This document shows, one piece after another, positions 17,650 to 33,660 of a DNA stretch of 64,000 bases. The notes beneath the pieces are model-generated. The model was not told the origin of the DNA. It did no database searches and worked only from the letters and a program-made list of their open reading frames with translations. Position numbers and translations under genes: made by a program. The first letter of the stretch is position 1. Every line of letters begins with the position of its first letter. The stretch spans positions 1-64,000 of the forward strand of contig JAPPGA010000019.1 of NCBI GenBank assembly GCA_028821515.1. The letters are read 5' to 3'. Origin of the DNA: Gammaproteobacteria bacterium. GTDB taxonomy: Bacteria; Pseudomonadota; Gammaproteobacteria; Pseudomonadales; Azotimanducaceae.

Positions 17650-17790
17650 GTCTCACGCAGCATCTGGTTAAGTGACTGAAGTCATTTTAAGCACCAGCCG
17701 CCCGCGATTGCAGAGATTATCCGTATGCCTTGCGGCTCCGTCTCCGGATACTCCCTGTCGGGCATTGCGGCAATTCTGGTATTCGCGAGG

Positions 17791-18912
17791 GTGGAAATCA
17801 TCGAACTCCTTTCCCACGCCATGGCGGCTGGCGCTTCGGACCTTCACCTGTCCTCGGGTTTGCCTCCCTTGGTCCGGGTCGACGGTGAACTGCGGCGCCT
17901 GGGAGAGGAGCCTTCAGCCGGGGGGGCTTCCCCGACCGCCGACGCGTGCGGAAGTGACGGTATTCCCCCCGTCGCTGGAGGCGTGCTTCCATGCAAGCCC
18001 ATTGCCGACCGCGAGGTTCGCGCGATGCTTGCCGCGGTCATGAGCAGGCGCAGTCGCGAGACGTTCGGGAATTCACTCGAAACGGACTTCGCGTTCGCGG
18101 CCGAGGGGATCGGGCGCTTCCGCGTCAATGCCTACCACCATGATCGTGGCGCCGGCGCCGCGTTCCGGGTGATTCCCTCCAGGGTTCCGACCATGGACGA
18201 ACTCAAGCTGGCGCCGGTGTTCGAGGAGATCGCCATGGCACCACGGGGCTTGGTCCTCGTCACGGGTCCGACCGGGTCCGGCAAGAGCACGACGCTGGCG
18301 GCCCTCATCGACGGCATCAACCGGAACCGCCAGCAACACATTCTCAGCATCGAGGATCCGATCGAGTTCGTGCACGCCAGCCGTTCCTGCCTCGTCACCC
18401 AGCGCGAAGTGCTTCGCGACACCAGGGGCTTCAACGCGGCATTGCGCTCCGCCCTCCGGGAAGACCCCGACGTCATCCTGGTGGGCGAGATGCGCGATAC
18501 GGAAACGATCCGACTGGCATTGACGGCGGCGGAGACCGGACACCTCGTGTTCGGCACCCTGCACACTGCGTCCGCGGCAAAGACCGTCGACCGCATTGTC
18601 GACGCCTTTCCGGCGGGGGAAAAGAACATGGTGCGTTCGGCGCTGTCGGAGTCGCTTCATGCCGTCGTTTCGCAGACCCTGCTGAAGGCCACAAGCGGCG
18701 GGCGTGTCGCGGCGCACGAAGTCATGCTGGCGACGCCGGCGATACGCAACCTGATAAGGGAAGACAAGACGGCGCAGATGGTTTCGGTAATGCAGACCGG
18801 CGCGGCTGTCGGCATGCAGACCCTGGATCAGTGCCTGCGCGGTCTCGTGCAGCAGGGGACCGTGTCCCGGGAAGCGGCGCGCGCGAAGGCGCGGGTCCCC
18901 GAAGACATCTGA
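17791..18912 (+). CDS. pilT: type IV pilus twitching motility ATPase PilT, with ~30-aa in-frame insertion
   Basis: ASDLHLSSGLPPLVRVDGELRRL, LVTGPTGSGKSTTLAALIDGIN, SIEDPIEFVH, REDPDVILVGEMRDTETI; insert GEEPSAGGASPTADACGSDGIPPVAGGVLPCK not expected in PilT. Confidence 0.92.
   Translation: MEIIELLSHAMAAGASDLHLSSGLPPLVRVDGELRRLGEEPSAGGASPTADACGSDGIPPVAGGVLPCKPIADREVRAMLAAVMSRRSRETFGNSLETDFAFAAEGIGRFRVNAYHHDRGAGAAFRVIPSRVPTMDELKLAPVFEEIAMAPRGLVLVTGPTGSGKSTTLAALIDGINRNRQQHILSIEDPIEFVHASRSCLVTQREVLRDTRGFNAALRSALREDPDVILVGEMRDTETIRLALTAAETGHLVFGTLHTASAAKTVDRIVDAFPAGEKNMVRSALSESLHAVVSQTLLKATSGGRVAAHEVMLATPAIRNLIREDKTAQMVSVMQTGAAVGMQTLDQCLRGLVQQGTVSREAARAKARVPEDI
17907..17993 (+). repeat. copy A of ~87-bp two-hairpin palindromic element, in frame inside pilT
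   Basis: GGAGCCTTCAGCCGGGGGGGCTTCCCCGACCGCCGACGCGTGCGGAAGTGACGGTATTCCCCCCGTCGCTGGAGGCGTGCTTCCATG aligns without gaps to copy B for 80 nt. Confidence 0.9.
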
Positions 18913-19443: not shown

Positions 19444-19510
19444 ATTCGTAAAACCGGGATCAGGCGCGCCCGGATGCGCACCGGGGGAGTTCCTGCGCTA
19501 CCGCTCTTCC

Positions 19511-19597
19511 ATGTGAAGTACGCGTCCGGCGACGGGTGAAATGCCAGCACTTCCTTACGCGTCAGCGGTCGGGGAAGCTCCCCCGGCTGAAGGCTCC
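19511..19597 (-). repeat. copy B of ~87-bp palindromic element, spanning the argF 3' end
   Basis: reverse complement GGAGCCTTCAGCCGGGGGAGCTTCCCCGACCGCTGACGCGTAAGGAAGTGCTGGCATTTCACCCGTCGCCGGACGCGTACTTCACAT; provides the last ~13 codons and stop of argF. Confidence 0.9.
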
Positions 19598-20496
19598 CCG
19601 AGCAGGAACTCGAGCAACGCCTTTTGCGAATGCAGTCGATTGCCCGCCTCCGTGTACACGACGGACCGGGGATCTTCGAACAGGTCATCGCTGACTTCCT
19701 CGCCCCTGTGGGCCGGAAGGCAGTGCATGAAGATCGCGTCCTTGCCGGCGAAATCGAGAAGCGCCGGCGTGACCTGGTATCCGTCGAACGCGTTTCGGCG
19801 GTCTTGCGCCTCCTCGTCGTGTCCCATGGAAGACCAGACGTCTGTAACCACGAGGTCGGCGTCTTCCACCGCGGCGCGCGGGCTCTCGACGAGGTCCGCG
19901 GTGTCGGTGGCGGCGAGCAGTTCCTCTTCCGGCCGATGGGTTTCGGGCGTGGCGATCTTCAGACGGAATCGGAATTGTCTGGCCGCGTTGATATACGAAT
20001 TGCACATGTTGTAGCCGTCGCCCACGAACGCGACGGTGCGACCTTCGATGGTTCGCCCCCGCACCTCCGCGTAGGTCTGGATGTCGGCGAGCAACTGGCA
20101 CGGGTGAAAACGGGCGGTCATGCCGTTGATGACAGGCACGGTAGAAGCGCGCGCAAACGCCGTGACGTCGTCGTGGCGCAGGGTCCGGATCATTACGGCA
20201 TCGACCATTTCGGAAAGCACGCGGGCGGTGTCCTCAATGGGCTCTCCCCGCCCTATCTGGGAGTCCTGGGGGCCCAGGTTGATGGCATGTCCCCCGAGTT
20301 GGTGCATCCCGACCTCGAATGCCACCCTGGTCCGCGTGGAGCTGAGCCCGAAGATCATGGCGAGCGTCTTGCCCCTGAGGGGCATGCACGTGTGGCCGTG
20401 CGCCTGGAGCCGCTTCAGTTCCGCGCCGCGCGAAACGATGCGGTCGAGTTCTTCGGGACTGAAGTCCCTTAAGGTCAGGAAGTGTCGTACCAGCAT
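19555..20496 (-). CDS. argF: ornithine carbamoyltransferase with repeat-derived C-terminal tail
   Basis: [81 protein letters not shown] followed by [13 protein letters not shown]. Confidence 0.93.
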   Translation of the reverse strand: [313 protein letters not shown]

Positions 20497-32838: not shown

Positions 32839-32978
32839 CTACGCTCGCTCCCACCGTTGATCGAACGGAGCGTCGGCGGCAGAATTGCAGACTCTCATCA
32901 CAAGGTTCGCATTGCGCCCGAACGAAATCCGGGGCGTCTGATACTTGAAGCTGCACATCGTACCGTCTCGGTACTTCG

Positions 32979-33014
32979 ATGGAAGTACGCCTCCGGCGAC
33001 GGGGAAATGCCAGT
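32979..33014 (-). repeat. half copy (D) of the palindromic element
   Basis: reverse complement ACTGGCATTTCCCCGTCGCCGGAGGCGTACTTCCAT matches the right half of copies A and B (1-nt deletion vs B). Confidence 0.85.
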
Positions 33015-33027
33015 CCGGTAGCGCGCC

Positions 33028-33660
33028 ATGACCCGCGTCTGGGATCTGCCGTTTCGGCTCTGGCACTGGGCGTTGGCCTTGAGCGTCCTGTTTTCCCTCT
33101 ATACGGGATTGGCCGGGGATATCTCACTGATGGAGTGGCATCAGCGCTCGGGGTTCGTGGTCCTGGCGTTGCTGCTGTTCCGTGTGGGCTGGTGGATATG
33201 GGGCGGCCGCTATGTCCGGCTGTCGGAGTATCGGACCACCCCGCGCCGTTTCATTCAGCATTTCGCCGGAACGGGCAAGGCGGACCCGCATACGTCGCCG
33301 GGTATCGTGATGGCCATCTTCGTGATCCTGGCCCTGACGGTGCAGGCGGGTACGGGCCTGTTCGCGACCGACGACATCTTCAACGAAGGTCCGCTGGTGC
33401 GTCATGTAGGGGGTGAGGTGTCAGCGACGATGACCTGGATACATCATCGCGTCTTCTGGGTCATCATCGCGCTCGTGGCGACTCACATCACTGCCAATGC
33501 GGTCTACGCAATGATGCGGGACCCCACACCGTTGGCCATATTCACGGGACGCAAGCCGCTGGATCTCCCGCCCACCGAGCAGCACCTGCTGCGAGCGCTA
33601 TTCACCGCCGCTGGCGCTGCGCTCGTCGTGTACGGCGCGTTGGCATGGAGCGGCTATTAG
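33028..33660 (+). CDS. cytochrome b561 family protein
   Basis: TRVWDLPFRLWHWALALSVLFSLYTG, HQRSGFVVLALLLFRVGWWIWGG, WIHHRVFWVIIALVATHITANAVY. Confidence 0.88.
   Translation: MTRVWDLPFRLWHWALALSVLFSLYTGLAGDISLMEWHQRSGFVVLALLLFRVGWWIWGGRYVRLSEYRTTPRRFIQHFAGTGKADPHTSPGIVMAIFVILALTVQAGTGLFATDDIFNEGPLVRHVGGEVSATMTWIHHRVFWVIIALVATHITANAVYAMMRDPTPLAIFTGRKPLDLPPTEQHLLRALFTAAGAALVVYGALAWSGY

Follow-up and report, generated by a model that had tools for sequence, protein, structure and literature searches.

A palindromic repeat, probably mobile, inserted in frame into pilT and other conserved genes of a gammaproteobacterial genus

Results

An 87-bp insertion in pilT

The window, by which we mean the whole stretch of 64,000 nucleotides that was analysed, carries pilT, the gene of a pilus motor, and, on the opposite strand, argF, each with a copy of the same palindromic repeat, and a third copy lies further along. 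The features discussed below are as follows (G003, the closest relative, and G005 are genomes of the same genus).

17725..18912, plus strand: host gene pilT, 395 aa as called (TIGR01420, E=8.5e-137; PDB 3jvu, E=7e-143)
17911..17997, plus strand: 87-bp repeat copy inside pilT (empty site in G003; 105 PilT orthologues without the segment)
17914..17942, plus strand: left hairpin of the pilT copy, TCAGC-CGGGG...CCCCG-ACC-GC(T/C)GA (consensus DNA fold; 97-98% of cells paired in 52 copies)
17950..17990, plus strand: right hairpin of the pilT copy, GGAAGT...(A/G)CTTCC (consensus DNA fold; 94.5% of cells paired)
19506..19593, minus strand: second repeat copy, C-terminal tail and stop of argF (occupied in G003, absent in G005)
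19555..20496, minus strand: host gene argF (ornithine carbamoyltransferase), ending within the second copy (ORF list, orthologue comparison)
32974..33050, minus strand: third copy, degenerate (covariance model 28.4 bits, E=0.002; weak)

The pilT gene, for which a GTG at 17791 fits the canonical PilT start better than the called one, matches TIGR01420 in two parts with the insert between them. The protein reads RVDGELRRLGEE, then 29 extra residues, PSAGGASPTADACGSDGIPPVAGGVLPCK, and then PIADREVRAML; the copy is read in sense frame s2 and is 90% identical to the repeat consensus. The initial annotation, made from the sequence alone, had claimed an in-frame segment of 29 codons (87 nt) at 17907-17993. 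The segment is borne out by the sequence and by the orthologue alignment, whereas its position was off by 2-4 bp. As the 4 bp AGCC stand at both ends of the element, the junction is ambiguous and all placements from 17909-17995 to 17913-17999 are equivalent.

G003, 96% identical in the flanking PilT sequence, has an exact empty site and reads CTGGGAGAGGAGCCCATTG where the present genome reads CTGGGAGAGGAG-(87 bp)-CCCATTG. None of the 105 PilT orthologues that could be aligned at this place has the segment, indicating that it was gained in this genome; the possibility, raised at the outset, that distant PilTs carry it as an ordinary domain was thereby removed. The assembly is a draft and repeats are prone to mis-assembly, and yet it is hardly credible that the segment is an assembly artefact or an old lineage-specific domain, since both flanks belong to one gene and are syntenic with G003, which has the empty site, and since copies of the same repeat occur at tens of unrelated sites.

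Searching genome contigs for PilT returned mostly 57-64% homologues, among them one species of the genus (L106), a MAG (JAJDTI010000010.1, labelled Pseudomonadales bacterium) whose PilT DNA is 100% identical to that of G004 over 1035 bp; judging from this gene, G004 appears to be the same species. The pilT loci of G000 to G008 gave one PilT-family match each (E<=1e-60), and in most of the other relatives covered by the search a PilU-like gene stands next to it as a second match, which suggests that pilU may have been lost in the genus.

PilT, the only protein modelled, was predicted by AlphaFold2 with 43 orthologues at a mean pLDDT of 82. The ATPase core is mostly confident and residues 63-87, most of the insert, fall below 50. 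The insert is predicted to be a disordered loop of the N-terminal domain, between the strand at 55-58 and the helix at 95-105, which is compatible with a loop that PilT tolerates.

Anatomy of the repeat

A recurrence of the repeat in argF and, in part, at about 33 kb had also been reported in the initial annotation. The argF copy is real but is not embedded: it provides the final 13 residues of ArgF (EPSAGGASPTADA) and the TAA stop, such that the protein ends in LLEFLLGEPSAGGASPTADA, whereas ArgF of G005, which is without the copy, ends in LLEFLLADR. The match near 33 kb is there as well, although weak and degenerate.

The consensus reads GGAG-CCTTCAGCCGGGGGAGCTTCCCCGACCGCTGACGCGTAAGGAAGTGCCGGCATTTCCCCCGTCGCCGGAGGCGTACTTCCATGCAAG, and the element is 87 bp long. 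Its edges are sharp, (A)GGAG on the left and TG(C/G)AAG on the right; outside them the flanks are only weakly conserved, with CYA to the left and CC to the right. The element ends, GGAGCCTTCAG and CTTCCATGCAAG, do not pair as inverted repeats, and no terminal inverted repeats were found. In the consensus both of the hairpins first described in pilT form, with 94-98% of cells paired per helix in 52 copies, but in the pilT copy itself the left stem is broken by one A-C mismatch, and the best fold predicted for its single strand differs from that of the consensus. Since variation among the 52 copies is one-sided only, with no compensatory base changes, covariation speaks neither for nor against a structural function, and the role of the hairpins is putative. 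Rfam holds no family matching the repeat; this and the lack of compensatory changes gave no sign of a conserved functional RNA, and that reading was dropped.

Copies also form tandem arrays with a period of 87 or 90, and a longer form of the element has an additional hairpin module, GGAGCGCGAGGGTGTCCCTCGCAAGAAA. A 45-bp hairpin unit, GGAGCCTTCAGCCCCGGGAGCGCGAGGGTGTCCCTCGCAAGAAAA, has the head GGAGCCTTCAGCC in common with the 87-bp element and is found alone, arrayed or fused upstream of it (G000 and G003, e.g. L176, L178, L179, L181, L187, L189). Another multicopy sequence, TGCCCCACAGCCGTCGCCTTCGGCTCCGCC, adjoins the 3' end of several copies (L016, L180, L181 right flank) and occurs at at least 10 places in G003. 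At one locus (L168, G000:C64, ~36.1-36.4 kb) three tandem copies lie right downstream of an apparent tRNA 3' end, GGTTCGATTCCTGCCGGGGCTGCCA.

Copy number and distribution

The proposal of a mobile repeat called for further copies, and these are plentiful. BLAST within the genome found ~48 good copies, with E values down to 1e-30 and beyond chance, and a covariance model trained on 52 copies gave 77 matches, of which ~70 were strong. The repeat is multicopy in four genus mates too: at least 125 copies in G003, 43 in G007, 20 in G005 and 10 in G004, as against none in G001, G002, G006 and G008, counts that come mostly from draft assemblies, G002 and G008 being single-contig genomes. A search of 49 relatives from outside the genus gave no match, and among 392 members of the order that were drawn only the present genome matched; these searches scored few candidates per genome, and highly diverged copies could escape them. 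The repeat is thus limited to the genus among the genomes searched. Carriage by phages or plasmids was considered and rejected, as a plasmid search gave no match and ten viral contigs had only a common 16-mer with no element around it.

Empty sites, targets and the search for a mobiliser

For 42-43 copies the two flanks were joined and used as queries against G003. In fifteen cases the site is contiguous there, and hence empty, and about as many sites are occupied in both genomes. Of the 15 empty sites 14 were aligned, and these show the element as gained, usually directly 3' of a purine-rich AGG, with junctions that are not base-exact at some sites because the flanks have diverged. A target-site duplication was rejected, being ambiguous (<=4 bp) at pilT and inconsistent at the other empty sites. 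Among 139 distinct full-length sites, 34 have a sense-strand gene end within ~24 nt upstream of the copy, and at 7, ArgF among them, a TAA inside the element (consensus position 41) serves as the stop codon of the gene.

Hairpins, tandem arrays with periods of 87 and 90, a target-like 5' flank, no clear duplication and a tendency to lie right behind stop codons on the sense side are what one would see if this were a REP/BIME-type repeat moved by a RAYT, a Y1 tyrosine transposase, that is, a common REP of intergenic DNA which now and then ends up within a gene, as such REPs are known to do (PMC3733652). We consider this doubtful. No Y1_Tnp was found in the present genome despite ~15 copies that G003 lacks, none of the 10 Y1 loci of genus mates is flanked by the repeat, the GTAG tag is missing and the hairpin geometry is unlike that of the GTAG and CGTC families. 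Mobilisation by a RAYT was accordingly rejected, and no transposase could be linked to the repeat in this genome or its mates.

Copies embedded in proteins

Embedded copies were called from codon-usage scores of longer ORFs, Pfam/NCBIfam matches and sister alignments, as 210-bp flanks alone were too weak, and in the present genome a coding signal was required on both sides of the copy. The hosts here are PilT, DnaE, MetG, KdsC, MurD, ZipA, GlcE, CoA-transferase III, a GT4 glycosyltransferase, a sulfatase and an amidohydrolase, and thus include replication, cell-wall and tRNA-charging functions. In genus mates they are RecC, a biotin-dependent carboxylase, a NUDIX protein, a Rieske oxygenase, an ImuB-like polymerase and an alpha/beta-hydrolase-like protein, of which this last was identified purely by inspection. 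Altogether 17 independent insertions are embedded in proteins, a count that rests on codon usage and homology, with a frame assignment that is soft for a few hosts; L172:2750, L181, L188, L198, L245, L313 and L315 were unconfirmed and left out.

Six of the copies with empty sites are in-frame insertions by protein alignment with the empty sister, namely those in PilT, DnaE, MetG, KdsC, CoA-transferase III and the GT4 glycosyltransferase. The exact length of 87 bp was kept in 16/16 full-length embedded copies scored, as compared to 86/123 of the others.

The sites in MurD, GlcE, ZipA and the sulfatase are occupied in sister genomes as well. This and the conserved or essential nature of the hosts could be taken to mean that the insertions are adaptive and add useful linkers rather than being merely tolerated. 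As the hosts are unrelated, the peptide is a small-residue filler with predicted disorder, a close sister has empty sites and nothing points to a function, we regard such exaptation as very improbable.

In murD the insertion is an in-frame array (L015:1300-1600, G000:C2 ~169.56-169.85 kb) of four 45-bp units (EGSLLRGxSPSRSPA) and one 87-bp element, which amounts to ~85 extra residues in MurD; the array of the sister G003 (L040) is shorter. The copy in the ImuB-like polymerase (L289:1573-1659, G003) runs in frame s0, then s2, then s0 (RSLQPGDVPPTADAQGSAGIAPSPDAYFHAS), which suggests that compensating indels may have restored the frame.

Choice of reading frame

In the consensus, sense frame s0 (RSLQPGELPRPLTRKEVPAFPPSPEAYFHA) and antisense frames a1 (LHGSTPPATGEMPALPYASAVGEAPPAEGS, with the peptide stretch PALPYASAVGEAPPAEGS) and a2 (CMEVRLRRRGKCRHFLTRQRSGKLPRLKAP) are open, whereas s2 is interrupted by TAA and reads EPSAGGASPTADA, stop, GSAGISPVAGGVLPCK. 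Accordingly, among 123 non-embedded copies s0 is open in 106, a1 in 102, a2 in 98 and s2 in 22. The 17 embedded events are distributed otherwise: a1 was read in 11, s2 in 4 (PilT, MetG, RecC and the Rieske oxygenase, all without the TAA), s0 in 2, one of them composite, with shifts that seem to compensate each other, and a2 and a0 in none. Gly, Ala, Ser, Thr and Pro make up 70-72% of the favoured a1 and s2 peptides and 23-59% of those of the other frames. Embedded copies therefore mostly read linker-like frames rich in these residues, though other frames are equally open. Weighted by openness the bias has P=0.001 for a1 and P<1e-5 for a1 and s2 together, the frame classes having been noticed and counted in one dataset.

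The same bias could come from the codon phase in which genes present the target motif, with no selection on the peptide. Taking the phase of CYAGG in 44 genes of the window, 79 of 99 motifs would indeed favour s2 for sense insertions; on the antisense side, however, the phase favours a0 (97) over a1 (33), and yet a0 is unused. As the excess of a1 and s2 persists when openness and target phase are combined (P=0.0006; P=0.005 for a1), we consider target phase an improbable explanation of the bias.

Discussion

Based on our data we propose, with good though not complete confidence, that the element is a palindromic repeat, mobile but non-autonomous, and that its copies within genes are retained only as harmless flexible linkers. 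The 87-bp repeat would spread among genomes of the genus, favouring positions after a purine-rich CYAGG-like target, often just downstream of stop codons. Most insertions into genes would be purged, and the survivors would be copies that leave the frame intact (87 bp being 29 codons), fall at a loop or linker position and are read on the strand and in the frame that give a flexible peptide rich in Gly, Ala, Ser, Thr and Pro; frames for basic or more hydrophobic peptides are almost absent. The pilT copy would then have been inserted recently and be tolerated because its 29 residues form a disordered loop of the N-terminal domain. We infer that transposition is the means of spread and purifying selection the cause of the frame bias, and PilT with the insert presumably still works.

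A bolder thought, which we find unlikely, is that the repeat has evolved translatability, such that one frame per strand yields a neutral, small-residue linker of 29 residues and the repeat persists in essential genes; it would spread with neither a Y1 transposase nor terminal repeats, by a mechanism common to modular repeats with the GGAGCCTTCAGCC head.

With the harmless-linker proposal, palindromic elements that invade proteins, for which Rickettsia is the best-known case, are extended to a gammaproteobacterial genus whose genomes are large and GC-rich. The six before/after protein pairs between close sisters (PilT, DnaE, MetG, KdsC, CoA-transferase and glycosyltransferase) allow direct tests of the movement of the repeat and of the survival of certain frames only, and the embedded copies serve as insertion scans, 29 residues at a time, that nature has already carried out on conserved enzymes.

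The Rickettsia palindromic elements (RPE; Ogata et al. 2000/2002) are, in the passages cited here, palindromic sequences of ~100 bp, with reported lengths of 105-146 bp and terminal inverted repeats, that lie between genes and in frame in unrelated conserved genes, DnaE included, at solvent-exposed or loop positions, and for which those passages name no mobiliser (PMC10969869, PMC2229807, PMC3767692). The repeat described here is likewise palindromic and hairpin-forming, lies between genes and in frame within conserved genes, has DnaE as a host and could not be linked to a mobiliser. By these descriptions it is set apart from RPE by its 87-bp core, its GC-rich gammaproteobacterial setting, its modular arrays, one favoured frame per strand and its absence outside the genus in our searches; the long stem-loop with terminal inverted repeats of RPE is not found in it. 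The suggestion of the initial annotation that this is an RPE-like, protein-invading mobile repeat of another lineage is supported by the empty sites, the preserved frame and at least 10 other recognisable host proteins, with the qualifications that the argF copy is a tail and that in-frame palindromic repeats outside Rickettsia have already been published.

The Wolbachia palindromic elements, as the cited passages describe them, also put a palindromic repeat inside a protein-coding gene, in yet another genus of bacteria (PMC3767692, PMC3733652); they resemble ours by description but are alphaproteobacterial. GTAG/CGTC REPs are short hairpin repeats that form arrays, lie near stop codons and in some cases within ORFs (uvrA, uvrB), as reported for several bacteria, and those with the CGTC tag have a stem of 8-9 bp, a loop of 4-5 nt and a CCA tail (PMC3733652). 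The present repeat shares the short hairpins, the arrays, the nearness to stop codons and some intragenic copies, but its 92-bp consensus contains no GTAG and no RAYT was found in the genome. On the minus strand a CGTC does stand before the left hairpin, but this hairpin has a bulge in its stem, a loop of ~6 nt and a tail other than CCA. MITEs with in-frame fusions (ERIC/RU-1, Yersinia RU-2, Correia/NEMIS) are ~100 bp long with open frames joined to host ORFs (PMC2229807). Our repeat is similarly non-autonomous, of about that length, open in frames fused to ORFs and found with empty and filled sites, yet terminal inverted repeats are absent from it, and target duplication is neither clear nor consistent.

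Since in-frame palindromic repeats are known elsewhere, from GTAG/CGTC REPs, ERIC and the MITEs of Yersinia and Neisseria, the kind is not unprecedented. As the tag and the terminal repeats of the known families are missing, no RAYT was found and the repeat occurred only in the genus among the genomes searched, we regard it as a separate family of modular build, RPE-like in its working and not an RPE, which stands out by how clean its before/after pairs are.
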